Positions 3,566-45,419 of a DNA stretch of 53,311 bases are shown piece after piece. Source of the DNA: Sphingobacteriia bacterium. GTDB taxonomy: Bacteria > Bacteroidota > Bacteroidia > B-17B0 > Aurantibacillaceae. The DNA lies in assembly GCA_009927275.1 (NCBI GenBank), contig RFNG01000106.1, forward strand, positions 1-53,311. Reading direction: 5' to 3'. A model generated the notes under the pieces. It searched no databases. It was not told the DNA's origin and saw only the letters and a program-made list of their open reading frames with translations. Numbering within the stretch: the first letter of the stretch is position 1; the number at the start of each line of letters is the position of its first letter. Both the position numbers and the translations under genes were made by a program.

Positions 3566-6335
3566 AATCTGATTTTAACGCTACGGCTGTTGGATTATTT
3601 TTAAGTTTCAATAAATCTGTAAGAACCCCTTCAAATAAAATATATCCGCCGCGTTTTCCGCCCTCCGGGCCCAAATCTATTATATAATCAGCAGCAGCAA
3701 TAATGTCAGTATTGTGTTCAATAACAATTACAGTATTACCCGTTTCAATAAATCGATACAAAACAGTAAGTAATTGTCGAATATCTTCAAAATGTAAACC
3801 CGTGCTGGGTTCATCTAGTATGTATACGGTTTTTCCGGTGCTTTTTCGGGCTAATTCGGAAGCTAATTTTATTCGTTGAGCCTCTCCACCACTTAATGTT
3901 GTTGCCGGTTGACCTAATTTAACATAACCCAATCCAACAGCCACAAGTGCGTTAAGTTTGTTATAAATATGGGGCTGGGCTTCAAAAATATGCGCAGCTT
4001 CCGAAATGGTGGCATCTAATATATCCGCTATGGATTTACCTTTGTATTTAACCTGTAAGGTATCCTTTACATAACGCTTTCCGCGACAAACAGTGCAACC
4101 AACAAGTACATCGGGTAAAAATTTCATTTCAATTACATTAACGCCTGCTCCACCACAAGCTTCGCAACGTCCACCTTTTACATTAAATGAAAAACGTCCC
4201 GGATTAAATCCTAAAACTTTAGCCTCAGGTAATGCAGCAAACAAATTGCGAATGTCTGTAAAAACCCCGGTGTATGTAGCCGGGTTACTTCGAGGCGTGC
4301 GACCAATGGGTTTTTGATCTACATTAATTACTTTATCTACCCATTCTAGTCCTGAAACCGATTGATACATTTGGGGCTCATGTTCTGCATTATGACAATG
4401 TTGAGCTAAAATGGGATATAAAGTTTCATTAATTAAAGTGCTTTTTCCGCTACCGCTTAAACCTGTAACACCAATAAAACAGCCCAGCGGAAATGTAACA
4501 TCAATATCTTTTAAATTATGTCCTCTACAACCCTTAAGGCGTATGGATTTGGACTTAGAAATTGAAGTTTTGGATGTTATATTGGCTACCTTTAAATGCT
4601 GATTTAAATATTGGGCCGTAAGGGATTGTGTACGCAATAAATCCTTAATTGAGCCGGAGCTGATAACATGTCCGCCATGAATACCGGCACCCGGTCCAAT
4701 GTCAATTATATAATCGGATTCCAGCATCATTTCACGATCATGTTCAACAACCAAAACCGTATTACCGATATCGCGTAATTGTTTAAGCGATTGAATTAAT
4801 TTTTTATTATCTCGGGGATGTAATCCAATACTGGGCTCATCCAAAATATACAAAACACCAACCAATTTAGATCCAATTTGAGACGCCAGGCGAATCCTTT
4901 GGGACTCGCCTCCACTTAAGGTTTGTGAGGATAAATGCAATTGTAAGTAATCTAATCCAACATCCATTAAAAATCCAATACGTTGTTCTAGTTCTTTAAA
5001 TAATTCAGTGGCAACGGTTTTTGAAAATTTATCTAAAGCCGCTGGTGTGTTTTTAATCCATTGTTGCAATTCCTCAAAATCCATACAGCTTAATTCGTGG
5101 ATGGACTTATGGTGTATTTTATATAACAGGGCCTCAGGCTTTAAGCGGCTTCCATTACAAGTTATACAACTACGTTGATGTTTTAAATGCGACCACATAT
5201 CATCTTCTTCAGAATCATCAACAAGTATATCCCAATAGCTGAGTATACCTTTAAATGATTTAGAATTGCCATGCAATAGCTGCATTTTAAATGTATTACT
5301 AAACTGCTTAACGTTGCTCGACCAAGAAAAGCCTTCGGACTTTAAAAATAGATCCAATTCTGGAATAACTGCTTTTGGATATTTAGATTTTGAGTTAAAA
5401 AACACTAAGCCCCCGTCCTGAAGCGATTTGTTTTTATCAGGAAAAATTTTGTCAATATTCCAATCGGAAGTATAGCCTAACCCTTCACATGACGTGCAAC
5501 AACCATATGGTGAATTAAATGAAAATACATTGGGGGACGGCGCATCATAACTTATGCCCGAATCTGCACACATCCAGTGTAAACTAAAATAGCGGCAAAC
5601 GTTGGAATTATCTGGTAAAACAAGTATGGTACCGGTTCCCATTTTTAAAGCAGTATCAAGCGACTGAAAAACACGATTATAGTTGCGCGTTGTAACATCT
5701 AAACGATCTATAACAATTTCAATATCATGTACCTTATAACGGTCTAGTGTTAAACCAGCATTTAATTCTACAATTTGCCCATCGATGCGGGCTTTTAAAA
5801 ACCCCTTTTTTCTGTAGCTTTCAAATAACTCACGGTAGTGTCCTTTTCTGGAGCGCACTACCGGTGCTAAAAGGGTTATGTATTGATTTTTATAGGTTTC
5901 GCACAATAAGTCTTTAATCTGTTGATTGGTATAGCGCTGCATTGGTTTACCCGTTACAGGTGAATCTGGAATTGCAATACGCGCATATAATAATCTTAAA
6001 AAATCATAGATTTCGGTAATGGTGCCTACCGTAGATCGTGGATTTGAAGAAACTGTTTTTTGTTCAATGGCAATAACCGGACTCAAACCACTAATTCGAT
6101 CCACGTCCGGGCGTTTTAAGGCACCTAAAAAATTTCGTGCGTAGGCAGAAAATGTTTCTAGGTATCGGCGCTGTCCTTCAGCAAATATGGTGTCAAAAGC
6201 CAATGACGATTTTCCACTACCGCTTAACCCTGTTAACACTACAAGTTTATTACGAGGTACGGCAATGGTTATATTTTTTAAATTGTGTTCACGAGCGCCT
6301 TCAATATAAATACATTCAGAATCTGTTGTAATCAT
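3552..6335 (-). CDS. uvrA: Excinuclease ABC subunit A
   Basis: UvrA is the damage-recognition ATPase of nucleotide excision repair. It works as a dimer and loads UvrB at lesions. The 927-residue protein has the expected two ABC ATPase halves: Walker A GLSGSGKSSLAFDT near residue 35 and [10 protein letters not shown] near 628. ABC signatures LSGGESQRIRLA and LSGGEAQRIKLA are each followed by LDEPS. The zinc motifs CCTSCEGLGY and CEACGGAG...CTVCRGKRY are present. Length is typical (about 930-950). The start overlaps the stop of the O-antigen ligase-like gene (ATGA), so uvrA appears to be the last gene of a surface-polysaccharide transcription unit. Its 3' end overlaps the opposite-strand membrane protein gene by 14 bases. 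Confidence 0.98.
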   Translation of the reverse strand: MITTDSECIYIEGAREHNLKNITIAVPRNKLVVLTGLSGSGKSSLAFDTIFAEGQRRYLETFSAYARNFLGALKRPDVDRISGLSPVIAIEQKTVSSNPRSTVGTITEIYDFLRLLYARIAIPDSPVTGKPMQRYTNQQIKDLLCETYKNQYITLLAPVVRSRKGHYRELFESYRKKGFLKARIDGQIVELNAGLTLDRYKVHDIEIVIDRLDVTTRNYNRVFQSLDTALKMGTGTILVLPDNSNVCRYFSLHWMCADSGISYDAPSPNVFSFNSPYGCCTSCEGLGYTSDWNIDKIFPDKNKSLQDGGLVFFNSKSKYPKAVIPELDLFLKSEGFSWSSNVKQFSNTFKMQLLHGNSKSFKGILSYWDILVDDSEEDDMWSHLKHQRSCITCNGSRLKPEALLYKIHHKSIHELSCMDFEELQQWIKNTPAALDKFSKTVATELFKELEQRIGFLMDVGLDYLQLHLSSQTLSGGESQRIRLASQIGSKLVGVLYILDEPSIGLHPRDNKKLIQSLKQLRDIGNTVLVVEHDREMMLESDYIIDIGPGAGIHGGHVISSGSIKDLLRTQSLTAQYLNQHLKVANITSKTSISKSKSIRLKGCRGHNLKDIDVTFPLGCFIGVTGLSGSGKSTLINETLYPILAQHCHNAEHEPQMYQSVSGLEWVDKVINVDQKPIGRTPRSNPATYTGVFTDIRNLFAALPEAKVLGFNPGRFSFNVKGGRCEACGGAGVNVIEMKFLPDVLVGCTVCRGKRYVKDTLQVKYKGKSIADILDATISEAAHIFEAQPHIYNKLNALVAVGLGYVKLGQPATTLSGGEAQRIKLASELARKSTGKTVYILDEPSTGLHFEDIRQLLTVLYRFIETGNTVIVIEHNTDIIAAADYIIDLGPEGGKRGGYILFEGVLTDLLKLKNNPTAVALKSDFKGF

Positions 6336-32211: not shown

Positions 32212-32541
32212 ATGTCCGATCAAAAATTACTTTCATTTAAGGTTCAACTCGATACACATCAATTACCCGAACAAATTGAATGGTTTGCCGATACGCATGA
32301 ACCGCCAAAAACCTGCAAAAGTGTTATGATTGCCTTATGGGATGAAAAAGAGGGTAATACTTTACGAATTGATCTTTGGACTAAAACCATGAGTATTGAT
32401 GAAATGCGAATATTTTACCATCAAAACATGCTTAGTATGGCTGATGCATATGCCAGAGCTACGGGTGATCAGAAAACCAGTACTGATGTAAAATCCTATC
32501 TGGAAGGTTTAGGAAAACGCATGGGAATTTTAAAGGATTAA
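32212..32541 (+). CDS. gldC: Gliding motility protein GldC
   Basis: Small protein of 109 residues matching the GldC family ([45 protein letters not shown]). GldC is found across gliding Bacteroidota and supports gliding; its exact action is unclear. There is no signal peptide, so it is likely cytoplasmic. No promoter is visible between it and the tRNA-Leu gene 25 bases upstream, so it probably depends on tRNA-Leu read-through. The stop overlaps the mutase large-subunit stop by 4 bases (TTAA). Confidence 0.9.
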
Positions 32542-34658
32542 ACCTTGACATGCAAAAGCAATTCATTTAAAATTTCAACAGCCGAGGCGCTAACAACCGT
32601 TCCAGGACCAAAAATCTGCAATACCCCACAATTTTTTAAAAAATCATAATCTATTTCAGGAATTACGCCTCCTGCTATTACCCGAATATCAGAACGATTT
32701 AACCGTTTTAACTGTTGTATTAACTCGGGGATGAGCGTTTTATGTCCTCCGGCCAATGTTGATATGCCTATAATATGTACATCGTTTTCAATAGCTTGTT
32801 TAGCAACTTCATCAGGCGTTTGAAATAAAGGCCCTAGGTCCACATCAAATCCCATATCGGAAAAGCTGCTGGCAATAACTTTGGCACCACGGTCATGTCC
32901 GTCTTGCCCCATTTTAGCTACAAGTATACGTGGCCTGCGACCTACGCGCTCTGCAAATTGCTGACTTAACGCAACGGCTTTTGAAAATGAAGGGTGTGTA
33001 TTCATAACTTGTTTGTATATACCTGAAACCGTTTGGATTTTAGCGGTGTAACGTCCAAATACAGATTCTAATGCTGCAGAAATTTCGCCAAGTGTACAGC
33101 GGCAACGGGCGGCATGTAGTGCATATTCTAAAATATTAGCATTTTGTGTAGCAGCATGCGTTAGTTCTGATAGTGCTTTTGAAACCGCTTTAGCATCACG
33201 TTTTTCACGAAGTGTTTTAAGCTGTTGCAATTGCAAATTTAAAACTTTAGTATTATCAATTTCACGTATTTCCACAACTTGCTTTATGCCAGAAGCGTAA
33301 CGGTTTATACCAACAATTATATCTTGTTCAGAGTCTATTCGTGCTTGTCTGCGGGAGGCTGCTTCTTCAATTCGCAATTTTGGAATTCCCGATTCAATGG
33401 CCTTGGCCATGCCTCCAAGTGCTTCAATTTCATTAATATGCTGACGTGCTTTTTCAATAAGCGACTGAGTTAAATATTCAATGTGATTGCTTCCTCCCCA
33501 AGGATCAACTGTTGAACAAACATCTGTTTCATGTTGTAAAAACAGTTGCGTGTTTCGGGCAATGCGCGCACTGTAATCGGTTGGTAAAGCAATTGCTTCA
33601 TCCAGTGAGTTGGTATGTAAACTTTGGGTATGCCCTAAAACAGCCGCCATAGCTTCATATAATGTTCTACTAATGTTATTGTACGGATCTTGTTCGGTTA
33701 AACTCCAGCCGCTGGTTTGGCTATGCGTGCGTAACATCAGTGATTTTGGATTTTGAGGATTAAATGCTTGTACCAGTTCAGTCCATAATACGCGTGCTGC
33801 CCTTAGCTTGGCAATTTCCATTCCAAAATGCATACCAATACCCCAAAAAAAAGATAATCGCGGCGCAAAATCATCTATGTGGAGTCCGGCTTTTAACCCG
33901 GTTTTAATGTACTCTAAACCATCCGCCAATGTATACGCAAGCTCAATGTCAGCTGTTGCACCAGCTTCATGCATATGGTAACCACTTATGGAAATGGAAT
34001 TAAACTTAGGCATGTGCTTTGATGTGTATTTAAATACATCTGCAATTAATCGCATACTGTGTTCAGGCGGATAGATGTAGGTATTTCGAACCATAAATTC
34101 TTTTAGAATATCATTTTGAATGGTTCCAGAAAGCTGGTCAGGACGTACACCCTGCTCTTCGGCTGCTACAATATAAAATGCTAAAATGGGAATTACAGCG
34201 CCATTCATGGTCATTGAAACACTCATGCGATCTAACGGAATATCTTTAAATAGCACCTTCATGTCTTCAACAGAATCTATGGCAACTCCAGCTTTTCCAA
34301 CATCTCCACGTACACGATCGTGATCACTATCATATCCTCGATGTGTCGCTAAATCAAAAGCCACTGAAAGTCCTTTTTGTCCGGCTTTTAAATTTTTTTT
34401 GTAAAACGCATTGCTTTCTTCTGCTGTGCTAAACCCGGCATATTGCCTGATGGTCCATGGGTTTTTTGTATACATGCTGGCGTAAGGACCTCTTAAAAAA
34501 GGGGCTTGTCCGGCTTGCGTGCCAAGATGTGAATACGCCTGAAACGGTATGTTGGTTTTAAAATCAATTCCTTCAGCACTTAAAAATTGTGTTGAGGTCA
34601 ATTCATGTGGACCAACTCTACGATATTTTAACTGCAGGTTAAAGGGTAGTGTTTGCAT
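32538..34658 (-). CDS. scpA: Methylmalonyl-CoA mutase large subunit
   Basis: B12-dependent enzyme converting methylmalonyl-CoA and succinyl-CoA. The 706-residue subunit has the substrate barrel ([28 protein letters not shown]; Tyr and substrate-binding motifs) and a C-terminal cobalamin domain with the base-off His in [13 protein letters not shown] followed by GISTLAGGH. The ATG at 34658 (MQTLPFN) is chosen because it starts near the family N-terminus; a longer in-frame start adds 14 residues and a larger overlap. It overlaps the small-subunit gene by 20 bases. It may work in propionate use or formation. Confidence 0.96.
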
Positions 34659-35913
34659 GTGCTTTAATTTCGTAATTATATCCTGGAAAGGTATTGTCAC
34701 TTTTTACTTGTAACCTAGAAACATCCGAATGCTGTAAAAAGGCATTAATACCAATTTTAAATTGTTCATTATTCCAAAATGCAGCATCCTGTTGCTGCTG
34801 TTGCATATCCAATTGAGTTTTTATCCAGCCCTTTTGAATTGCATTATGTATTCCGCCCTGTTTTTGAATTTCTGAAATCCAGTATAAGGCTTTTTCAGCT
34901 AATGCATCGGTATAATATTCAACAAAATAGGCACCGCATGATATATCCGCATAGTGATGCAATAACATTTCTTCTCGCATAAGCAATTGTTGTGCTATTG
35001 CTAAATATTCGTAATTAAATTCATGTTGCTGAAGATGCAAATGAGCCGTTGTGTTTTGAATAGCAGAAGCACCACCAATTTTTGATGCTAAAACCGATAC
35101 AGCCGAACGAAGTATATTAGTATCTGCATCTAATGCCGAATAAAATCGTGTACTGTTTGATGTTGAAAGTAATAAACTTGGCAAGTGCGTATTAGATTGT
35201 TGCCATAAGTTCCAAATACGATGTATGGCTCTTAGTTTAGAAATTTGATTGTAAAATTGTTCGGTTACAGCTGCATGAAATATTACGGGTGCAGGCGAAT
35301 CCTTTAAACGAGATTGCAAATCTACTAATAGACTTAAACCAATAGCAATTTCAAATGCGGCGGTGGCACCTTGCGCATGATAGGACTCTGTTGAAATCAT
35401 TGCCCATGAAGCCGCATTAAAATTTTTATGATGTGCTGTATATACCTTTAAAAATGCATCGTAATTTGAAACATTGTTTGCCTTCTGCGTTTGCAACAAC
35501 CATATCTTGGTTGATTTATTGCCATTGCTGTGCAAATAATCTAATGTGGCATGTAGCGCATCTGCATGACCTTCTATTATATTTAAAATATAGGGGGTTT
35601 CAATGGATGCAAATAATTGATGAAACACACTAGCATTAACATGGTACCATATTGAAGAAGCTCCAGATTGTAATGCTTTTAAAAAACGAGCATTGGCATT
35701 AATGGCTTGGTAAGGTTTTGGTAAACGGTAAACTATATCCCAATGCGAAGAATTAAATGCTGGAGCACATGCGGAATCAAAATCCGTAACGGTATAAGCC
35801 GGGGCAATTGAAATACCATCGGCATCTGTTTTACAAAGTTCAGACCAATTAGAAATTTTAAGCTCGGTTTCAATACGTTTTAACCAGCTGGAAAGTGTTG
35901 CATTCAATGTCAT
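34639..35913 (-). CDS. Methylmalonyl-CoA mutase small subunit
   Basis: Protein of 424 residues with the mutase barrel fold pattern ([31 protein letters not shown], and [32 protein letters not shown]), but it lacks the catalytic residues of the large subunit and any cobalamin domain. In two-subunit mutases this chain is structural. It is shorter than classical small subunits (about 600), as is usual for Bacteroidota. It lies 9 bases after the preceding membrane-anchored protein and overlaps the large subunit by 20 bases. Confidence 0.9.
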
Positions 35914-35922
35914 GAAAATGAT

Positions 35923-36447
35923 TTAATAATACGCGTTAAGTTCACGTTTTAAATATTCAATAGCAACATCGGATGGCAGTTTTTTATCAAGCTGTGATAT
36001 AATGTGCATTAATTTTTGAGACAACTCGGTTGCCGGCACATTGGCGGTTATTTGCGCTGCAGATAAATTGATTAATTTAATTATCTCTTCTTTAGCTTGT
36101 TTTACAATATCCCATGCACCACTGCTTATATAAATTTGCTGCGTAAGATTATGCTCAAACTCCTGACGTATCGTAGTTATGAGCTCAAGTTGAAATTGAC
36201 GTACATTGAGTGCTGTGTGCGGTATACGTACAATTAGTTGCAGAGGATGTGAGCGCTCAAGAAATAACACCAGACGTTCATATGCCTGCAATCGCAGAGG
36301 TGCCATGACTGTACGGTTTTCATGTTTTACCTGCCAGTGCTGTTTTTCTTTTTCATGATCTAAAAAACGTTTTATAGTAAAATATGCAGCAGCAAAAACC
36401 AATCCGGCAGGGATTATAATTTTTAATAATTCTAACACGACGTTCAT
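35923..36447 (-). CDS. Membrane-anchored conserved protein (DUF7935-like)
   Basis: Protein of 174 residues with one N-terminal transmembrane helix (about 5-25) followed by a charged, helical cytoplasmic part (FLDHEKEKQHWQVKHENRTVMAPLRLQAYERLVLFLER). It matches a conserved Bacteroidota family of unknown function often seen beside methylmalonyl-CoA mutase genes. It starts the mutase unit, only 9 bases before the small subunit. A role linked to the mutase is suggested by position only. Confidence 0.7.
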   Translation of the reverse strand: MNVVLELLKIIIPAGLVFAAAYFTIKRFLDHEKEKQHWQVKHENRTVMAPLRLQAYERLVLFLERSHPLQLIVRIPHTALNVRQFQLELITTIRQEFEHNLTQQIYISSGAWDIVKQAKEEIIKLINLSAAQITANVPATELSQKLMHIISQLDKKLPSDVAIEYLKRELNAYY

Positions 36448-36540: not shown

Positions 36541-36885
36541 GTGAAAACAACATTAAAAAATGGCATTTCAGCATTAACCTGCATGTGCTTTTTATTACAA
36601 GTTGTATATCTTATTTTCACTTCAACGATTTCAACACCTCAAGCCACTTATAAATACCAGTGGAACCCACTGCAAACCCAATACAACGTTCCTTTATTGA
36701 TAACTGAAGAAGCCGAAGATGAATTTGAAATTGATATTAAAGCCTCCACTTTTGCATTTCAAACCTTTTTAATAATTGCTATTACTTTTACAACATTTTT
36801 AGGCTTATCGTATTGTTTTAGTTTTTACAGAACGTCTTCCTATAAATTAATAAATCTATTTGAATTACGCATGTTTAGAATTTGA
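36541..36885 (+). CDS. Small membrane protein with acidic linker, first gene of the DabAB cluster
   Basis: Unrecognised protein of 114 residues starting at GTG. It has two hydrophobic segments (about 10-30 and 76-96) separated by an exported or cytoplasmic stretch with the strongly acidic run EEAEDEFEID (about residues 57-66), and a basic C-terminal tail. It precedes dabA by 41 bases with no terminator between. A second small protein before the next transporter pair (42923) has a similar DESEFEI element and a comparable position. An accessory or assembly role for the bicarbonate system is inference from position and shared motif. Confidence 0.65.
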   Translation: MKTTLKNGISALTCMCFLLQVVYLIFTSTISTPQATYKYQWNPLQTQYNVPLLITEEAEDEFEIDIKASTFAFQTFLIIAITFTTFLGLSYCFSFYRTSSYKLINLFELRMFRI

Positions 36886-36926
36886 TTGGCACAGTACCTG
36901 TTTGCTAATTTTTAATTCTAAACCAT

Positions 36927-39416
36927 ATGTCATTTGATTTAAACAACACTATCGATTGTATCCGTAAATTCCTGCCACATCAGGCCAGTTTAAAGGATTT
37001 TATTCATCACAACACACTTGAGGCCTTTCAACATGAAGATTTTTTTTCAGCACTACAAAAGTCAAAATATTTATTTGGACATCAAACGCATTTAAACCTT
37101 CAAAGCTACCAAAACAAATTTTTAAATGGCGGTATTACCGTTGAGGCCTTAGAATATGCTATTAACACGTATGGTAATAATTGTATTAAACACTGTTTTG
37201 ATTCTGCACTGTGGGCACCCTTACAAAAACCTACCGAACCACTTATTGGAAAATTTCGTGAAAAGTGGCAAAGTGATTATAATTTTGATATTGAACATCA
37301 TGTGCAAATACCATTGTTTAAACTGCTTTCCTCGTATTTGGATCAGGGTGTTTCAATTACTACATTTCCAAAATCAGAACTTGGATTTTTAAATAGTGTA
37401 TTAAAACTTAATGCTTCTAGTAAAAGTAAACTTTTTAAATCGCCCCGCATCCAAACTTTAATTTCTAAACCTTTTAATGCTTCTACACTTTTATACATAC
37501 TGCTTGCAGATGAACAATACTATCAAACCTATATTTGGGATTTATTGTTTAGTCATCCAGGTTGGTCTGGATTTATAAATGTAGTTGATCATAACCCGCA
37601 AACACTTTTTAACACGGTTCCTATCAGTTTGCAGGATGTATGCTTAGTTGAATTATTACTTGAAATTGATGCATTGGATCAACATTTTGGCACACATTGG
37701 GCGCCCCTTGGGCATCAATCCGGCTGTTCCATTATACATGTTGAACAATTTAACACACATTTTACAGCGGATGTAGCGATAACCATATGGCAAAATGCAC
37801 TGGAATGGACATGGTATGATCAATTAATTTCTTGTTTAAACAAAACGGTACCGGTACACGAACCAACACAATCAACGTCGGCACAATTGATATTTTGTAT
37901 AGACGATCGTGAAAGTTCACTTCGCATGCATATAGAACAACTGGATTCTACATGTGAAACTTATGGTACACCAGGATTTTTTAATATCCCCATTTATTTT
38001 AAACCTTACGATAGTATACATTTAACAAAACTCTGTCCGGCCCCTGTTACACCAAAGCATTTAATTATTGAACATCAAAACCCTAAAATAAAATCCAAAT
38101 CTTTTAATTTTCATCAACGTCCATTTACGTTAACCTATGGCTGGTTATTTTCATTAAGCTATGGTTTTGTTTCATTACTGTACTTAATTTATGATTTATT
38201 TTTTCCTCACGAACACGTTTCGGGAAGTATCGCTCATAAGCATCTCAGTGAAACTTCGGAATTACAATACGAATTTAAAAATCAAACGTATGATGCTAAA
38301 CACAAAAGCCTGCAATTAGGATTTAAAACAGCTGAAATGTTCCATTTAGCATTTTCATTTTTAAATACCATGGGCTTAAAACACAATTTTGCACCATTAG
38401 TATATATTATTGCGCATGGCGCTTCCAGTCAAAATAATCCGCATTATGCTGCGTATGATTGTGGGGCATGCTCAGGACGGCCCGGCTCTGTAAATGCACG
38501 ATTAATGGCATTGTTTTTAAACCGTAAAGATATTCGAAACGCACTTTTAAATGCCGGACTTGTAATTTCAGATGACACTCAATTTATTGCTGGATTACAC
38601 GATACCACACGAGATGAAATAGTTTTTTACGATTTGGATCATTTAACTCCAGAAACTGTAAAAAAACATTTAAAAATTAAATTAACAATTAACCATGCGC
38701 TACAAAATAATGCTGCAGAACGTTCCCGTAAATTTGAAACCATTGCATTACAAGCTTCACTCACTAAAAAACATCAACACATAAAAAAACGATCGGTATC
38801 CTTGTTTGAACCTCGTCCTGAATTAAATCATGCATCAAACTGCTATTGTATAATTGGCCCTCGTAAATTCACTAAGAACATATTTTTAGATCGTCGTGCA
38901 TTTTTAAATTCATACGATCCCTATTCTGATACACGCGGTGATATCTTAACCCAAATATTAAAACCTATAGGCCCCGTGTGTGGAGGTATAAATCTGGAGT
39001 ATTATTTTTCGTGTGTTGACAACAATAAATTTGGCGCAGGTTCAAAGTTGCCACATAATGTGGTTGGATTATTTGGTGTTTCAAATGGTATTGATGGCGA
39101 TTTAAGAACCGGATTACCTTACCAAATGATTGATTTACATGATCCCCTGCGTTTATTGGTTGTGGTGTATCAAAAACCAGAAATTGTATCTGATATTTTA
39201 AATCAACAACCTGAAATACATTCATGGTATTTAAATCAGTGGATGCATTTGATATGTATTGACCCGTTTACTTATGCAACATATAAATACACTAAAAATG
39301 GCTTTGTACCCTATTTTACTTTTACAAGTTCACAGCATTTTATAAAATCAGATCATCTTGTAAAATACAATTCGCGCACGCCGCTTCCAATTTCAATTAT
39401 TACACATGCAAACTGA
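36927..39416 (+). CDS. dabA: DabA, inorganic carbon transporter subunit (DUF2309)
   Basis: Cytoplasmic zinc subunit of the DabAB (MpsAB) inorganic-carbon accumulation system. It is thought to turn CO2 into bicarbonate in one direction using energy from the membrane subunit. The 829-residue protein has the beta-carbonic-anhydrase-like zinc residues: Cys324 and Asp326 in FCIDDRES, His497 in AHGAS and Cys512 in DCGACSG. The spacing Cys-x-Asp and His to Cys of 15 residues equals that of the studied Halothiobacillus DabA (C351, D353, H524, C539). The C-terminal part is complete. It overlaps dabB by 11 bases. The dabA-first order is opposite to the staphylococcal mpsAB pair. Confidence 0.95.
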   Translation: MSFDLNNTIDCIRKFLPHQASLKDFIHHNTLEAFQHEDFFSALQKSKYLFGHQTHLNLQSYQNKFLNGGITVEALEYAINTYGNNCIKHCFDSALWAPLQKPTEPLIGKFREKWQSDYNFDIEHHVQIPLFKLLSSYLDQGVSITTFPKSELGFLNSVLKLNASSKSKLFKSPRIQTLISKPFNASTLLYILLADEQYYQTYIWDLLFSHPGWSGFINVVDHNPQTLFNTVPISLQDVCLVELLLEIDALDQHFGTHWAPLGHQSGCSIIHVEQFNTHFTADVAITIWQNALEWTWYDQLISCLNKTVPVHEPTQSTSAQLIFCIDDRESSLRMHIEQLDSTCETYGTPGFFNIPIYFKPYDSIHLTKLCPAPVTPKHLIIEHQNPKIKSKSFNFHQRPFTLTYGWLFSLSYGFVSLLYLIYDLFFPHEHVSGSIAHKHLSETSELQYEFKNQTYDAKHKSLQLGFKTAEMFHLAFSFLNTMGLKHNFAPLVYIIAHGASSQNNPHYAAYDCGACSGRPGSVNARLMALFLNRKDIRNALLNAGLVISDDTQFIAGLHDTTRDEIVFYDLDHLTPETVKKHLKIKLTINHALQNNAAERSRKFETIALQASLTKKHQHIKKRSVSLFEPRPELNHASNCYCIIGPRKFTKNIFLDRRAFLNSYDPYSDTRGDILTQILKPIGPVCGGINLEYYFSCVDNNKFGAGSKLPHNVVGLFGVSNGIDGDLRTGLPYQMIDLHDPLRLLVVVYQKPEIVSDILNQQPEIHSWYLNQWMHLICIDPFTYATYKYTKNGFVPYFTFTSSQHFIKSDHLVKYNSRTPLPISIITHAN

Positions 39417-41274
39417 AATTTTAAATTTATTGATATACAGTGTATTTGGGCTCCCATTAATTTTATTTTTAATACTAGCCATTTTTAAAAATGCATCTGA
39501 ATTAATTATTTATCGTATAAGTATTTGGGGTTATGGCATCCAAATTCTCTTAATTACTGCATTGTCTATTTATGAATTTGGATATTTTAATGCTAACCTG
39601 TTTTTTAAGAGCTTAACCTTATACAAATCTGAAGATTATGAATTTTATATTGCATTTTTTATAAATCCAAGCTGTATTTTGTTTTTAAGCACTGGAACCC
39701 TATTAAGTTTACTTATAACCGTGTTTAGTAAATACTATTTACATCGTGAGCAAGGATTTAATCGCTTTTTTACACATATACATTTATTTTATTTAGGGTT
39801 TGTAATTATTTGTATTTCTGGAAATTTAGAAACACTTTTTATAGGTTGGGAAATAATAGGAATTTGTTCGTTTTTACTAATTGCTTTTTACAGAAACCGG
39901 TTTTTACCTGTACATAATGCGTTAAAAGTGTTTACAATTTACCGTCTTGGTGATATAGGACTTCTCTTGAGTATGTGGGGCATTCATCATGCATGGCATT
40001 CCAATGTTAATTTTCAAAATATCGATGTTTTACCTCATAACATTTATACAAATAGCATATTAGTACAATTTATACTATTAATGCTACTTCTTGCCACCAT
40101 GGCAAAATCGGCTTTATATCCCTTTACCACATGGTTACCCAGAGCCATGGAGGGGCCAACGCCTTCAAGTGCCATTAGCTACGGCGCGTTATCCGTTCAT
40201 ATGGGCATATTTTTACTTATTAAAACCTATGCCATTTGGCAACACAGCGTGTTGTTTAAAATTATATTGTGTGCCATAGGTATTATTACGGCGGTTGTTT
40301 CAACTTTAATTTCAAATACACAATCTACAATAAAAGGTCGTATTGCATATGCCACTGCTGCACAAGTAGGTTTAATGTGTATTGAATTGAGCTTTGGATG
40401 GATAACATTAACCATCTGGCATATTTGTGGTCATGCGTTTTTAAGAACCTATCAATTGCTGCAATCGGCATCCATTGTTAGTTTAAAAAATCAACAGTTT
40501 AAATTCCAAAAGCAATCATTTCAAATTGCAAATTCAAAACTTTCCGCTTTTAAAGCTACAGTATATACCCTTTGCTTAAAGGAATTTAATATGGATTTGG
40601 TTCAGCATTTTTATTTTTGGAAACCACTAAAATCTATAGGCAGATATTTAAAAATTAATACCTGGACTATTTTTTTTATACGAATAACGCCCATTTTATG
40701 CATTGGATTTCTAAACCGGTATGCACCTGTATACATCTCTGATATGATAAAAGATTACATACCTATTGTATTAGGTGTATTTGGATTGGGCCTCATTCTA
40801 AAAGCTTTTTCTGCTACAACTAATTTAAAATTAATAATGACTTTAATATTTTCAAATCATGTATTTGCATCCTTAGCTATTTCAAATAATGAGAAGTTAC
40901 AAATGCATGAATTACTGTATTATTGGATTGGAATTGTATTAGGATTTGGCATTTGTATGTACGTTTTAAATTACATATTACAAACACACAAACAACTAAA
41001 TATTACGCGTTATAATGGCTTGGTGTATTTTTTTCCAACTTCATCATTGTTTTTTTTACTGGGATGCTTAATGCTGAGTGGATTTCCCATTTGCACAACC
41101 TTTATTGGTGAAGATTTAATTTTTAGTCATATAAAACCCAATCAGGTATTATTAGTTTTAATCTTATCATTAAGTTTTATACTTGATGGATTAGCGCTAA
41201 TTCGCATCTATGCACGAATATTTTTAGGACCAGTTGCAATTCATCAATACTTAAATGCATACAAACGATCGTAA
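39406..41274 (+). CDS. dabB: DabB, NuoL/MrpA-like membrane subunit
   Basis: Polytopic membrane protein of 622 residues in the proton-translocating NuoL/MrpA/DabB family. It has about 14-16 helices, the conserved Glu in LFIGWEIIGICSFLLI (about residue 148) and the Lys/Pro region MAKSALYPFTTWLPRAMEGPTPSSAISYGA (about 230-255). This region is shared with complex I antiporter subunits. With DabA it would couple cation flow to inorganic-carbon uptake. Nothing else of complex I is nearby, and the 11-base overlap with dabA supports the DabB reading over a respiratory subunit. Confidence 0.92.
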   Translation: MQTEILNLLIYSVFGLPLILFLILAIFKNASELIIYRISIWGYGIQILLITALSIYEFGYFNANLFFKSLTLYKSEDYEFYIAFFINPSCILFLSTGTLLSLLITVFSKYYLHREQGFNRFFTHIHLFYLGFVIICISGNLETLFIGWEIIGICSFLLIAFYRNRFLPVHNALKVFTIYRLGDIGLLLSMWGIHHAWHSNVNFQNIDVLPHNIYTNSILVQFILLMLLLATMAKSALYPFTTWLPRAMEGPTPSSAISYGALSVHMGIFLLIKTYAIWQHSVLFKIILCAIGIITAVVSTLISNTQSTIKGRIAYATAAQVGLMCIELSFGWITLTIWHICGHAFLRTYQLLQSASIVSLKNQQFKFQKQSFQIANSKLSAFKATVYTLCLKEFNMDLVQHFYFWKPLKSIGRYLKINTWTIFFIRITPILCIGFLNRYAPVYISDMIKDYIPIVLGVFGLGLILKAFSATTNLKLIMTLIFSNHVFASLAISNNEKLQMHELLYYWIGIVLGFGICMYVLNYILQTHKQLNITRYNGLVYFFPTSSLFFLLGCLMLSGFPICTTFIGEDLIFSHIKPNQVLLVLILSLSFILDGLALIRIYARIFLGPVAIHQYLNAYKRS

Positions 41275-41283
41275 TTAAATCTC

Positions 41284-42843
41284 ATGAAAACCAAACAAAA
41301 AAAATTAAAAATGAATTCAAACACACAACCACTCGACGGTATAAAAGGATTAATAAAACATTGGAAAAGCGAAAGCGTATCTGGCTTTTTAGTATTTTTA
41401 TTAGCAATGCCTTTAAGTTTAGGCATTGCAAAGGCATCTTTGTTTCCTCCCTTGTATGGCATCTTAACCGCCATAGTTGGCGGACTGGTTGTTAGTATTT
41501 TTATGGGTTCAAAATTATCTATAAAAGGACCTGCAGCCGGATTAATTGTAATTGTTTCATCTTGTGTTTCTGCAATTGGTGAAGGTGAAAGCGGATGGAA
41601 AATGACGTGTGGCATTATAGCTGTAGCGGCTTTGCTTCAAATTGTATTTGGTGCATTAAAATGGGGAAGCTTAGCTGATTATTTTCCAGGAACGGCCATA
41701 CATGGCATGCTTGCTGCCATTGGGATTATAATTATGAGTAAACAAATTAATTTATTATTTGGTGTAGATCCCATAAGCTTAAAAGGTCTAGAACCCATAG
41801 CGCTCTTAAAACACATTCCAAATAGTATACAGCATGAAAACACGCAACTTATGGAAATAGGATTAACCTGTTTAGGTTTAATGTTTATTTTAAATGGCTT
41901 GCCTTTTAAAATTTTAAAAACAGTTCCGGCACCATTAGTTGTATTAATTGTTTCTGTACCCTTGGGTATTTTATTACATATTAAAACGCAAGGCGCTATT
42001 CACAATTATGCACTTGTGCAAATTGGTTCTATAACCGATATATTTAATTCAGGATGGTTTCAGGCTGATTTTTCAGGAATTTATAAATTTCCAAGCATTG
42101 CGGTACAATATATTATTTTGTTTTCATTAATAGGAAGCATAGAATCGTTATTAACTGCAAAAGCCATGGATCGTCTTGATCCGTATAAACGTAAAACAAA
42201 TTTTAATTCTGATTTATGGGCCGTTGGTATTGGCAATTTTATTTGTGGGTGTATTGGAGCATTACCTATGATTAGCGAAGTGGCTCGAAGTTCAGCAAAT
42301 ATAGCTTATGGTGCAAAAACAAGATGGTCAAATGTGTTTCATGGGTTATTTTTACTTTTAGCCATTTGCTTTGCAAAACCCATTATCGAATGGATTCCAA
42401 ATGTTGCTCTTTCAGCCATGCTAATTTATGTTGGCTTTAAATTAGCCCATCCAAAATCATTTATTCATATTTGGAAAAATGGAAAACTTCAATTTCTTGT
42501 TTTTTGCATAACCATTATTGTTACCCTATTTACCGATTTATTAGTGGGTGTTTCCTCGGGTATTGCGTGTGAATTTTTAATTAATTGGAGCAAAGGTTTA
42601 TCCCTTTTAAACACATTTAAATGCAATATTGCCAAAATTACAGAATCGGATATTGTAAAAATAAAAATTCAATCACCGCTTACTTTTTCCAATGTACATG
42701 TGCTAAAAAATACATTAAACGCATGTTCAAATGTAACAACCATTGAGATGGTTTCTACTTCATGGATGGATGAAACAGCACAACATTATATTTCGGATTG
42801 GATACAGGAACAACCCGAATCACGTCAATTAATTCAGTATTGA
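41284..42843 (+). CDS. SulP-family anion transporter (first of two)
   Basis: SLC26/SulP transporter of 519 residues with about 12 membrane helices. The N-terminal hallmark is GFLVFLLAMPLSLGIAKAS, followed by KLSIKGPAAGLIVIV and SIESLLTAKAMDRLDPYKRKTNFNSDLWAVGIGN. The C-terminal part (about 440-519) is a shortened, STAS-like segment. SulP members include bicarbonate, sulfate and other anion carriers. Its place 9 bases after dabB and the nearby carbonic anhydrase favour bicarbonate, but specificity is not decidable from sequence. A long hairpin follows the stop. Confidence 0.92.
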   Translation: MKTKQKKLKMNSNTQPLDGIKGLIKHWKSESVSGFLVFLLAMPLSLGIAKASLFPPLYGILTAIVGGLVVSIFMGSKLSIKGPAAGLIVIVSSCVSAIGEGESGWKMTCGIIAVAALLQIVFGALKWGSLADYFPGTAIHGMLAAIGIIIMSKQINLLFGVDPISLKGLEPIALLKHIPNSIQHENTQLMEIGLTCLGLMFILNGLPFKILKTVPAPLVVLIVSVPLGILLHIKTQGAIHNYALVQIGSITDIFNSGWFQADFSGIYKFPSIAVQYIILFSLIGSIESLLTAKAMDRLDPYKRKTNFNSDLWAVGIGNFICGCIGALPMISEVARSSANIAYGAKTRWSNVFHGLFLLLAICFAKPIIEWIPNVALSAMLIYVGFKLAHPKSFIHIWKNGKLQFLVFCITIIVTLFTDLLVGVSSGIACEFLINWSKGLSLLNTFKCNIAKITESDIVKIKIQSPLTFSNVHVLKNTLNACSNVTTIEMVSTSWMDETAQHYISDWIQEQPESRQLIQY

Positions 42844-42922: not shown

Positions 42923-43213
42923 TTGAAACAGTTAAAAAAAATTTACTTTGTGGGTCAGCTGTTTTGTATATGCATAATTCTTATGCAACCCCTTTACCTG
43001 TATTCTCATTCTCAATTATCCGGCCTTTACACTTTTGATGCTGCTCAACAAGATACCGACGGCTTTGATGTTGACGAATCTGAGTTTGAGATTCCTCCAA
43101 AACCAATTTTTTTCGCTTCTGCAAAGCTTTTAAATCTTCCTGTTTACAATAGCATCATTCACTTTACAAGTTTTAAAACCAGTCCTCCAACTCCCCCGCC
43201 CGATTCTAATTGA
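42923..43213 (+). CDS. Small exported protein with acidic motif and Pro-rich tail
   Basis: Unrecognised protein of 96 residues starting at TTG. A nearby ATG at 42919 is in another frame and gives only a short product. It has an N-terminal signal or membrane helix (about 8-28), the acidic stretch DTDGFDVDESEFEIPPKP (about 44-61) and a Pro-rich C-terminus (TSPPTPPPDSN). Its stop overlaps a possible TTG start of the following SulP gene, so translation may be coupled. The DESEFEI element resembles EDEFEID in the small protein at 36541. Function unknown; position suggests a partner of the transporter and carbonic anhydrase. Confidence 0.6.
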   Translation: MKQLKKIYFVGQLFCICIILMQPLYLYSHSQLSGLYTFDAAQQDTDGFDVDESEFEIPPKPIFFASAKLLNLPVYNSIIHFTSFKTSPPTPPPDSN

Positions 43214-43251: not shown

Positions 43252-44781
43252 ATGTTTAAATTTTTTTTAACGGATTTAAAATCCGGAATAGTCGTTTTTT
43301 TAGTGGCACTTCCACTTTGTTTAGGAATAGCATTAGCCCAAAATGCGCCCTTACTTTCAGGGCTTATTGGAGGTGTAATTGGTGGCATTGTAATTGGTGG
43401 CATTAGCGGTTCAAGACTTTCTGTAAGCGGTCCTGCAGCGGGATTAACCAGTATTGTATTAAACTCTGTAAGCGAGCTGGGTACATTTGAATTGTTTTTA
43501 ACGGCCATTGTAATTTCAGGACTTTTTCAAATTTTATTAGCCGCCATACGTGCCGGTAGTATCGCGCATTATTTTCCTTCAGCCGTTATAAAAGGAATGC
43601 TCTGTGCTATTGGCATAATTTTAATAATTAAACAAATACCGCATTTAAGCGGATATGATGCGGATACCGAAGGTGATGAAGCCTTTTTGCAATCTGATGG
43701 TGAAAACAGTTTTTCAGCTTTTACCTCTACCCTTTCACATATCATGCCGGGATCAATTACAATTGGCCTTATATCGTTATTATTACTCTATATATGGGAA
43801 TTAAAATGGTTTAAATCAAATGCCATAACCAACGCGATACCTCCGTCATTACTGGTCGTTTGTTTTGCAATTATAGCTGCTTTAGGATTTGAGCAGTTTA
43901 TACCACAAATGGCCATTCGTGCTGAACACTTTGTTAATTTACCCAAATTTCAAAATATCGGTTCATTGCAAAACATGCTGATTAGTCCAGATTTTAGTGG
44001 TTTTTTAAATCCAGCCGTTTATGAAATTGCTTTTGTAATTGCCTTAGTAGCCAGTTTAGAAACACTACTCTCTCTTGAAGCTATTGACAGGCTGGATCCT
44101 GAAGATTCACAATCACCTCCCAACCGTGAGTTATTAGCGCAGGGAACCGGAAATACCATTTCTGGACTTTTAGGCGGATTACCCTTAACGTCCGTAATAG
44201 TGCGCAGTTCGGTAAATGTTAATTCAGGAGCAAAAACAAAAGTTTCAGCTATTATTCACGGATTTTTAATTCTAATTTCTGTATTGGGATTTCCTTGGGT
44301 ACTTGAGCTCATTCCATTAAGTGCTTTAGCTGCAATTTTAATTTTTACGGGATTTAAACTGGCCCAGCCCAAACTCTTTGTAAGTGTTTATAAAAAGGGG
44401 TTTGACCAGTTTATACCCTTTATTATTACCTTAGGAATAATGCTTTTTACGGATTTGCTTAAGGGTGTTACTGCCGGACTAATTATATCGGTTGTATATA
44501 TTTTACGTCAAAACCACCGTTCTCCATTTAAATTAATACAAGAAGAAATTAATGGTACATTTCATGTTTTTATTAAACTATCCACACATATTACGTTTGT
44601 TAATAAAGGAAAATTTTACGAGGTGTTTCACTCCATACCTAATTCATCAATAGTATACATCGATGGCGGAAAAGCGCAATTTATTGATAAAGATATTTTA
44701 GAACTAATTGAGCAATTTCAACATCAAGCCAAACGCCGGAACATTATAGTTCATTTAGAAGCTATTCCTATTAACATATGA
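43252..44781 (+). CDS. SulP-family anion transporter (second of two)
   Basis: SLC26/SulP transporter of 509 residues with about 12 membrane helices and hallmarks GIVVFLVALPLCLGIALAQNAP, SRLSVSGPAAGL and SLETLLSLEAIDRLDPEDSQSPPN. A short STAS-like domain ends it. I favour the ATG at 43252 (MFKFFLTDLKSG), the usual N-terminus. A TTG at 43210 that overlaps the preceding stop would add 14 residues and is possible. It overlaps the carbonic anhydrase gene by 4 bases (ATGA). SulP next to a carbonic anhydrase is a known arrangement for bicarbonate carriers, so bicarbonate is the likely substrate. Confidence 0.92.
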   Translation: MFKFFLTDLKSGIVVFLVALPLCLGIALAQNAPLLSGLIGGVIGGIVIGGISGSRLSVSGPAAGLTSIVLNSVSELGTFELFLTAIVISGLFQILLAAIRAGSIAHYFPSAVIKGMLCAIGIILIIKQIPHLSGYDADTEGDEAFLQSDGENSFSAFTSTLSHIMPGSITIGLISLLLLYIWELKWFKSNAITNAIPPSLLVVCFAIIAALGFEQFIPQMAIRAEHFVNLPKFQNIGSLQNMLISPDFSGFLNPAVYEIAFVIALVASLETLLSLEAIDRLDPEDSQSPPNRELLAQGTGNTISGLLGGLPLTSVIVRSSVNVNSGAKTKVSAIIHGFLILISVLGFPWVLELIPLSALAAILIFTGFKLAQPKLFVSVYKKGFDQFIPFIITLGIMLFTDLLKGVTAGLIISVVYILRQNHRSPFKLIQEEINGTFHVFIKLSTHITFVNKGKFYEVFHSIPNSSIVYIDGGKAQFIDKDILELIEQFQHQAKRRNIIVHLEAIPINI

Positions 44782-45419
44782 AAACCGATTCACTTTACCA
44801 AAAACTCATCAATGGCAATAAAAAATATGCCATGGAAAAACGATTTGATGATCCTGAGTATTTTAAAACACTTTCACTTGGTCAAAAACCCGACTATTTG
44901 TGGATTGGGTGCAGTGACAGCCGGGTGCCCGCCAATGAAGTAACCGGCACGCAAAGTGGTGAAATATTTGTACACCGGAATATTGCCAATGTTGTAATTC
45001 ATACTGACTTTAATGTTATGAGTGTTCTAGATTATGCGGTTAACGTTCTTAAGGTTAAACACATTATTGTATGTGGCCATTATGGATGCGGCGGCGTACG
45101 TGCTGCCTTGACCAACAATATGTATGGTTTTGTTGATTCGTGGCTAAGACATATTAAAGATGTTTACCATTTACATCAATCCGAATTAAATGCTATAATG
45201 GATGAAGATAAACGCGCAGACCGGCTTACCGAATTAAATGTGATTGAACAAGTTCGTAACCTGGCACAAACCAAAATTGTTCAAAATGCCTGGCATAATA
45301 AACAAGCATTACAATTACATGCATGGGTGTATGGCTTAAATAATGGGCTTATTACAGAGTTAAAACACATTTTAGATAATACAGCTGATATAGATTCTAT
45401 TTACCGTTATGAGTTTTAA
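44778..45419 (+). CDS. can: Beta-class carbonic anhydrase
   Basis: Interconverts CO2 and bicarbonate in the cytoplasm. The 213-residue protein has all zinc residues: Cys45 and Asp47 with Arg49 in GCSDSRVPA, and His101 and Cys104 in CGHYGCGGV. Length matches the beta-class. It overlaps the SulP transporter by 4 bases, so the two are translationally coupled, as expected for an uptake and interconversion pair. Its stop overlaps the stop of the opposite-strand dioxygenase by 4 bases (TTAA). Confidence 0.97.
   Translation: MKTDSLYQKLINGNKKYAMEKRFDDPEYFKTLSLGQKPDYLWIGCSDSRVPANEVTGTQSGEIFVHRNIANVVIHTDFNVMSVLDYAVNVLKVKHIIVCGHYGCGGVRAALTNNMYGFVDSWLRHIKDVYHLHQSELNAIMDEDKRADRLTELNVIEQVRNLAQTKIVQNAWHNKQALQLHAWVYGLNNGLITELKHILDNTADIDSIYRYEF

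Follow-up and report, generated by a model that had tools for sequence, protein, structure and literature searches.

TnaC, the leader peptide at the head of the E. coli tna operon, has 24 residues, senses tryptophan and arrests at UGA. According to excerpts of PMC8429421, Arg-Pro-UGA forms its end and is followed by a rut site, and the Arg in penultimate position would clash with RF2. Export-monitoring substrates are described, in excerpts of PMC10987492, by four features: a small upstream ORF (uORF) of unknown function, an N-terminal signal or transmembrane (TM) segment, a conserved C-terminus, and a spacer of more than 30 residues. The same excerpts report Bacteroidota uORFs whose arrest occurs while the A site holds the stop codon, and an LPPP motif that stalls ribosomes in uA_LPPP (PMC10987492). 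The export-monitoring arrest peptides treated in these excerpts regulate the export machinery itself.

We analysed a stretch of 53,311 nucleotides from a Bacteroidota contig (the window), in which a small ORF precedes dabA and dabB. Like TnaC, this leader stands at an operon head and has a penultimate Arg, a TGA stop and, past the stop, RNA of rut-like composition. However, the leaders described here have about 115 residues with a membrane segment and an acidic block, and their likeness to TnaC is a parallel in sequence features, with no claim of homology. The leader also shares the four anatomical features with SecM, VemP, MifM and uA_LPPP. It belongs to small uORFs with no annotated function upstream of dabA, SulP or RND genes, has an N-terminal signal or TM segment (residues 9-29 in the window; a feature selected for in the collected set), and shows a spacer of more than 30 residues from the signal to where the C-terminal motif ends (about 85, from residue 29 to 114, in the window leader). 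The C-terminus is conserved in the family, although the window member keeps only R-x-F-R-I. Whereas the Sec/YidC monitoring substrates target secA, secDF or yidC and carry the motifs NSP, NAP or RAPP, these leaders precede genes for inorganic-carbon transporters, porin-like proteins and RND pumps, and they carry [FL]-R-I-stop together with an acidic block at a fixed distance. With a probability of roughly 0.56, we consider the leader to be a cis-acting regulatory leader peptide, a nascent chain of the monitoring-substrate kind, and not a component of DabAB. Arrest leaders as a kind are already known; the targets, the motif and the acidic ruler would be new, and the open-access literature searched, which covers the field in part, contained no account of leaders preceding dabAB, SulP or RND operons in Bacteroidota.

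The leader ORF and its neighbours

The features of the locus are as follows.

36541..36885, + strand: leader ORF, 114 residues, GTG start, TGA stop (ORF list and DNA)
36565..36627, + strand: N-terminal hydrophobic segment, about residues 9-29, membrane or export signal (sequence; AlphaFold2 helix 4-30, block pLDDT 76-93)
36706..36735, + strand: acidic block EEAEDEFEID, residues 56-65, centre about 53 residues before the C-terminus (sequence)
36751..36828, + strand: second hydrophobic segment, about residues 71-96 (sequence; AlphaFold2 helix)
36868..36886, + strand: C-terminal RMFRI, TGA stop and T at +4, putative termination-arrest motif (family consensus)
36886..36926, + strand: gap of 41 nt to dabA, pyrimidine-rich, C above G (composition)
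36886-36908: one bulged hairpin inside the leader-dabA gap
36927..39416, + strand: DabA (PF10070), proposed regulated target (Pfam E 1.3e-196)
39406..41274, + strand: DabB (Proton_antipo_M), overlapping dabA, proposed regulated target (Pfam E 1.5e-41)
41284..42843, + strand: SulP transporter, next gene of the unit (Pfam PF00916, E 1.1e-59)
42923..43213, + strand: second small leader-like ORF, 96 residues, TGA stop, leading SulP2 and carbonic anhydrase
43252..44781, + strand: second SulP transporter, likely ATG start (ORF list, Pfam)
44778..45419, + strand: beta-carbonic anhydrase (Pfam PF00484, E 7.1e-56)

The first-pass annotation had described a protein of 114 residues with two hydrophobic segments on either side of EEAEDEFEID, and the ORF list and the DNA agree. 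It had also placed this gene first in the DabAB unit. The order is indeed leader-DabA-DabB-SulP, with DabA starting 41 nt past the leader stop, and the ORF 5' of the leader (35923-36447) lies on the opposite strand. The TTG start called by the tool for the second SulP, at 43210, overlaps the stop of the second leader-like ORF. The only known RNA family found in the window is a tRNA, away from the leader. Beside the carbon-uptake locus, at 32538-35913 on the - strand, lie two adjacent genes that we take to be a methylmalonyl-CoA mutase-like pair.

AlphaFold2, run with alignments of 54 and 32 sequences, gave a confident N-terminal helix and predicted no compact fold with either alignment (pLDDT 72.5 and 67.7, pTM 0.35 and 0.32 for the models). 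The helices of the window leader span residues 4-30 and 67-111, the second being confident only to about residue 90. As weak evidence from modelling, the missing compact fold would fit a nascent-chain element better than a subunit.

Relatives of the leader at dabA loci and elsewhere

No family had been recognised for this protein at first, and this still holds: the window leader matched nothing in Pfam or NCBIfam at E <= 1, and the best PDB match of its profile (E 0.19) was unrelated, so that no clear match to an unrelated known family emerged from the three collections. A BLAST-type search of 87 genomes of the same GTDB family returned the window protein itself and three weak matches, which contain internal stops and were taken as chance. 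Synteny combined with profiles delineated a fast-evolving Bacteroidota family of 117 members, falling into 73 clusters at 40% identity. A profile built from the 116 other leaders, with the window leader left out, ranked the window ORF first among 225 (E 8.5e-7; next 0.14), and a profile of 55 leaders from the same GTDB family gave E 3.1e-7. A profile of the last 75 residues did not pick the window ORF among the window ORFs (E 0.79), and a profile search with alignment A2, whose members are 10-25% identical to the window protein, did not return at E <= 0.1 the window leader that forms its first row. In its sequence, the C-terminal half of the window leader is divergent. HYC_CC_PP and DUF6660-type proteins are small exported Bacteroidota proteins encoded before transporter operons, HYC_CC_PP having a C-terminal PP motif; their NCBIfam models matched 0 of the 55 leader members scanned. 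Pfam and NCBIfam searches over these 55 gave scattered weak matches, each family being hit by no more than two members (best E 0.0011), and these were taken as chance.

A DabA match is present in 39 of the 87 genomes. Among 33 dabA loci of the GTDB family, taken with flanks, 25 have an operon-head ORF of 110-150 residues, lying directly before dabA in 16 and before a SulP gene that heads the dabA operon in 9. The latter operons have the order SulP, porin-like gene, DabA, DabB; a small ORF precedes SulP in 9/9, and none lies directly before the operon-internal dabA in 9/9. The profile search added a 26th leader, at a contig edge (G079). Outside this set, we scanned GTDB representatives with the DabA alignment and took the best 80 of 563 relatives as named loci; the dabA of 9 of these 80 is identical to one of the 33. 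By automatic criteria, a member leading dabA or SulP1 is present in 54 of these best 80 of 563, directly before dabA in 44 and only before a SulP1-type gene in 10. Two others (Runella) have a SulP2-type leader only, and 24 have no leader, some of these loci ending near dabA. The seven Runella loci within the best 80 of 563 all lack a leader before dabA. Leader-bearing loci occur, for example, in Flavobacterium, Arcicella, Aquirufa, Emticicia, Fulvivirga and Cyclobacteriaceae, and separate copies before dabA and before SulP occur in several loci, e.g. 8 of the best 80 of 563. The gap between leader and target is 25-288 nt (medians 101 and 104), gaps up to 300 nt having been allowed by the leader collector. 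Absence from other dabAB loci would have counted against the first-pass annotation; the leader is present at many of them, though not at all.

Three loci of the same GTDB family (L035, L036 and L065) carry divergent DabA genes without a leader, and in L035 and L036 the gene order is DabB-DabA. In the gammaproteobacterium Azotobacter chroococcum (L125), DabA is 58% identical to the Bacteroidota query, and from this sequence similarity it may reflect transfer between phyla; there is no ORF of at least 80 residues within 543 bases upstream of this gene.

Members of the family were also found away from dabA. A profile search of the 87 genomes gave a match at E <= 0.1 in 67, the weak matches probably being mostly chance. 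Among the strong matches we picked by hand and examined 20 places away from dabA, leaving out, for example, matches in G009, G021, G039, G041 (contig C2 near 54.6 kb) and G054. Seven of the 20 precede MFP-RND operons, 3 precede operons starting with an outer-membrane efflux gene (one behind an ORF of 183 residues), and 4 precede SulP operons (one behind an ORF of 175 residues). Of these SulP operons, L204 was not counted as lacking dabA because it may be a dabA operon split between contigs, and L217 is on the contig of a dabA. The remaining places precede 3 porin-like genes, an OprB porin gene and a carbonic anhydrase gene, and one has nothing in range. Ten genomes (G004, G007, G017, G018, G028, G030, G056, G067, G071 and G076) have members and no DabA match. 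In the loci scanned, Pfam confirmed AcrB-type pumps, membrane-fusion proteins and outer-membrane efflux proteins. The porin-like gene of about 450 residues has no Pfam match, and two of three scanned match the ExtI porin model weakly, below its cut-off. In L212, an open-ended frame (about 4991-5684) follows leader, SulP and porin-like gene; its start presumably belongs to a sodium-dependent bicarbonate transporter (SbtA).

The next gene lies 351-730 nt away in 8 of the 20 places, the ORF of 183 residues being the one counted for L207. Inspection of these gaps (L200-L203 and L206-L209) by eye shows a structured-looking element that recurs with variants, ..CTTGC..TTTATTTCATAGTTTT..GCAAGACC.., and lies in two tandem copies in L202 and L203. 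It had no Rfam match in these gaps (for L202 also at a relaxed threshold), and a search of 61 genomes with a strict pattern yielded a single copy. It is possibly an undescribed RNA element or repeat.

Because the leader family also heads RND, porin-like and SulP operons, it is tied to envelope transport in general and is not a DabAB-specific subunit: it occurs with dabAB and elsewhere, where a subunit would be confined to dabAB. The earlier suggestion that the protein is an assembly factor or a regulatory subunit of the DabAB complex is thus divided, a regulatory role towards DabAB being likely and the role of assembly factor or subunit finding no support. We regard a DabAB-specific factor of this sort as quite unlikely. 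Its position directly before dabA in the window and in the 16 of 33 and 44 of the best 80 of 563 loci would suit it; the copies that head RND, porin-like and separate SulP operons, some of them in genomes with no DabA match, and the nine operons with no leader seen directly before an internal dabA do not. As at the leader's locus, S. aureus mpsABC has an extra gene beside a DabAB-type pair, encoding the small protein MpsC. Unlike the leader, MpsC is encoded downstream, is dispensable and, in excerpts of PMC6689103, is found beside mpsAB in staphylococci only; the same excerpts report that mpsC is not needed for mpsAB to complement an E. coli mutant in carbonic anhydrase, which also argues against the leader as a subunit or assembly factor of DabAB. 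In the DAB2 structure paper (PMC13144422), a word search for 'small subunit' and 'third subunit' returned neither.

C-terminus, acidic block and stop codon

For the analysis of anatomy, 96 leaders were chosen by two features, a hydrophobic stretch at the N-terminus and an acidic window, with spacing, C-terminus and stop codon left unselected. The presence of the stretch and the acidic window is not evidence, because both were selection criteria. The last 11 residues follow roughly P-[IL]-[YF]-[IL]-x-[IV]-[RCK]-x-[FL]-R-I and abut the stop codon. Positions -1 to -11 carry 0.53-2.34 bits, 9 of the 11 being above 1, and positions -12 to -46 carry 0.10-0.62 bits. The terminal R-I is encoded by mixed synonymous codons. 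In a minority variant, e.g. in Flavobacterium, the peptide ends ..PLYDLFCNWKFHLS and the motif is displaced from the stop. The window leader keeps RMFRI-TGA-T and the acidic spacing, and lacks the P-[IL]-[YF] of the consensus.

The acidic block lies at a nearly constant distance from the end, with medians of 53 residues for dabA leaders (n=63) and 55 for SulP1-type leaders (n=33). In the 73 cluster representatives, the standard deviation of this distance is 4.5, compared with 22 after shuffling of residues 31 to -12, and it falls within 45-62 in 65 of the 73 clusters, compared with a maximum of 31 in 200 shuffles. The window leader matches the spacing of the 117 members (mean 55.4, SD 4.3). 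In the family, the distance from TM segment to acidic block averages 49 and that from acidic block to end about 56, and a weaker hydrophobic patch lies at about -34 to -47.

The stop codons of the 96 leaders are TGA in 57, TAG in 21 and TAA in 18, whereas TAA ends 556 of 837 ORFs of at least 150 residues in the same loci (Fisher 1.7e-19) and 70 of 121 conserved short ORFs of 80-200 residues (p 3.7e-9). With one leader per cluster (73), the counts are TGA 39, TAG 17 and TAA 17 (p 1.1e-12 vs long and 3.0e-6 vs short ORFs); all P values here treat related sequences as independent, and clustering reduces the effect of kinship only in part. TAA ends 2 of the 35 clusters whose peptide ends in [RK][IVL], and 9 of 16 with endings outside the [RK][IVL] and [LIQYV][ILV] classes. 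It is found in 7 of 59 leaders whose motif starts 11 residues before the stop and in 3 of 7 with a start at 13-14, the others being placed poorly by the pattern; motif position is thus a soft internal control for the stop bias. SpeFL is a ligand-sensing leader peptide, an ornithine sensor, which to our knowledge is not exported. It is described in excerpts of PMC8429421 as an arrest peptide inhibiting RF1, which may be compared with the use of TAG by 24 of the 117 leaders.

The constraint extends past the stop. T follows TGA at +4 in 46 of 57 leaders, compared with 64 of 138 control ORFs ending in TGA, and in 29 of 39 clusters (p 0.002). Compared with 186 co-directional gaps in the same loci, the 60 nt after the stop are richer in pyrimidines (0.593 vs 0.512, p <1e-8), have a skew of C over G (0.151 vs -0.049, p 1.1e-9) and a higher YC density (0.096 vs 0.066, p 1.9e-10); cluster representatives (n=64) give 0.578, 0.160 and 0.094, respectively. 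The last 20 codons also show C over G (0.24 vs 0.14), so the skew is weaker as a separate post-stop signal. In composition, the region resembles a Rho loading region and may be called rut-like. Because a mature protein is blind to its own stop codon and to the DNA that follows, the constraint on both argues against a DabAB subunit.

The same constraint bears on a small exported or membrane protein that acts in trans, for example as an envelope-stress sensor or shared chaperone whose C-terminus docks on a common partner. Such a protein would agree with conservation at the protein level despite mixed R-I codons, with the position of the family before several classes of envelope transporter, and with a membrane segment and acidic block. 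It leaves the stop codon and post-stop sequence unexplained, however, and it sits poorly with the lack of a predicted compact fold, with the very fast divergence outside the acidic block and the last 11 residues, and with separate copies before dabA and SulP, which suit a role in cis. We consider it unlikely.

Other read-outs of the region were tried. Intrinsic terminators after the leader are not enriched (9 of 84 vs 20 of 186 controls) and were rejected, as was read-through or frameshift fusion to the target: the three frames stay open as far as the target start in 9, 11 and 8 of 96, with gap phases of 37/33/26. A ribosome parked at the stop, as in SecM-type unmasking, changes pairing at the target start by only +0.046, and this small effect is unspecific, because blocking any paired region would raise accessibility there. 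The pairing profile after the stop shows no difference from controls (p 0.10 and 0.25). Hairpins have a moderate enrichment in the post-stop region (48 of 84 vs 69 of 186). Folding there is somewhat better than in control intergenic regions (mean z -1.99, n=91, vs -1.37, n=150), as would suit a structural RNA, or a chance ORF, with an irrelevant peptide; we nevertheless hold this to be extremely improbable, as the C-terminal amino acids are conserved despite varied synonymous codons and the leave-one-out profile recovers the window ORF at the E value given above. A leader without arrest, which brings the nascent mRNA to the membrane via SRP or acts through translational coupling, would account for the N-terminal segment and the place at the front of the operon. 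It needs neither a conserved C-terminus, nor a fixed acid-to-end spacing, nor a preference among stop codons, and the wide range of gaps with their flat phase is unsuited to coupling, making it very unlikely in our judgement.

A proposed arrest mechanism and a second leader-like ORF

We favour an arrest leader, and the small gene in the window is probably a regulatory leader rather than a pump subunit. By its anatomy it is a candidate arrest leader, in which the final residues may hold the ribosome at the stop codon. The N-terminal segment would take the ribosome to the Sec translocon. When synthesis is done, the stop codon would occupy the A site and the motif ending in R-I would lie in the exit tunnel beside the peptidyl-transferase centre; slow release at the stop, suggested by the C-terminal conservation and the stop-codon bias, would amount to arrest. 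During arrest, the acidic block, with its observed spacing of about 55 residues, would be at the membrane, where an export force, notably the electrical potential acting on its negative charges, could release the arrest. The stalled ribosome would cover the pyrimidine-rich RNA with C over G and keep Rho off, so that RNA polymerase reads into dabAB-sulP; once the ribosome departs, transcription would be cut, following the logic of TnaC, as the composition suggests. Weak membrane energisation or export would then lead to higher expression of the downstream transporter. We infer that the leader informs its transporter operon about export or the energisation of the membrane.

RND and SulP transport is driven by ion gradients. 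DAB2 is described as coupled to the membrane potential in the title of PMC13144422. Excerpts of the review PMC6028853 describe how the membrane potential pulls on acidic segments within SecYEG with enough force to relieve SecM arrest; in the SecM experiments release also increased with basic and uncharged segments, so the potential alone is insufficient to account for SecM release. According to excerpts of PMC7886326, membrane segments start pulling about 45 residues from the peptidyl-transferase centre, and an acidic block at about 48-61 would therefore be well placed to feel the potential. A broader proposal is that the ion-gradient-coupled envelope transporters of Bacteroidota (DabAB, SulP and RND pumps, together with their porins) share exported leaders with stop-codon arrest that serve as voltmeters, the potential pulling the acidic block to free the ribosome and Rho-dependent attenuation matching transporter expression to membrane energisation; we put this forward tentatively, as an unlikely reading. 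A class of arrest leaders at the head of Bacteroidota transporter operons would bring nutrient and drug transport within the reach of nascent-chain sensing, constitute an undescribed switch for transporter expression and suggest how the CO2-uptake genes of the phylum are regulated, and a genetically encoded sensor of membrane potential might follow. For annotation, caution is advised: small hypothetical membrane proteins encoded at the head of transporter operons in Bacteroidota may be leaders rather than subunits.

The second small ORF of the window, before the second SulP gene, has an N-terminal segment, the acidic stretch DVDESEFE and the C-terminus PPTPPPDSN. Compared directly with the first leader, it gives E 0.023 in a single comparison, so their kinship is, at sequence level, suggestive only. 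It resembles the group of leaders before SulP2, in which TAA is the stop in 6 of 8 and PPP occurs near the end in 7 of 8. This SulP2-leading variant ends in PPP, as in uA_LPPP, its relatives ending, for example, in PPPKA and PPPEF.
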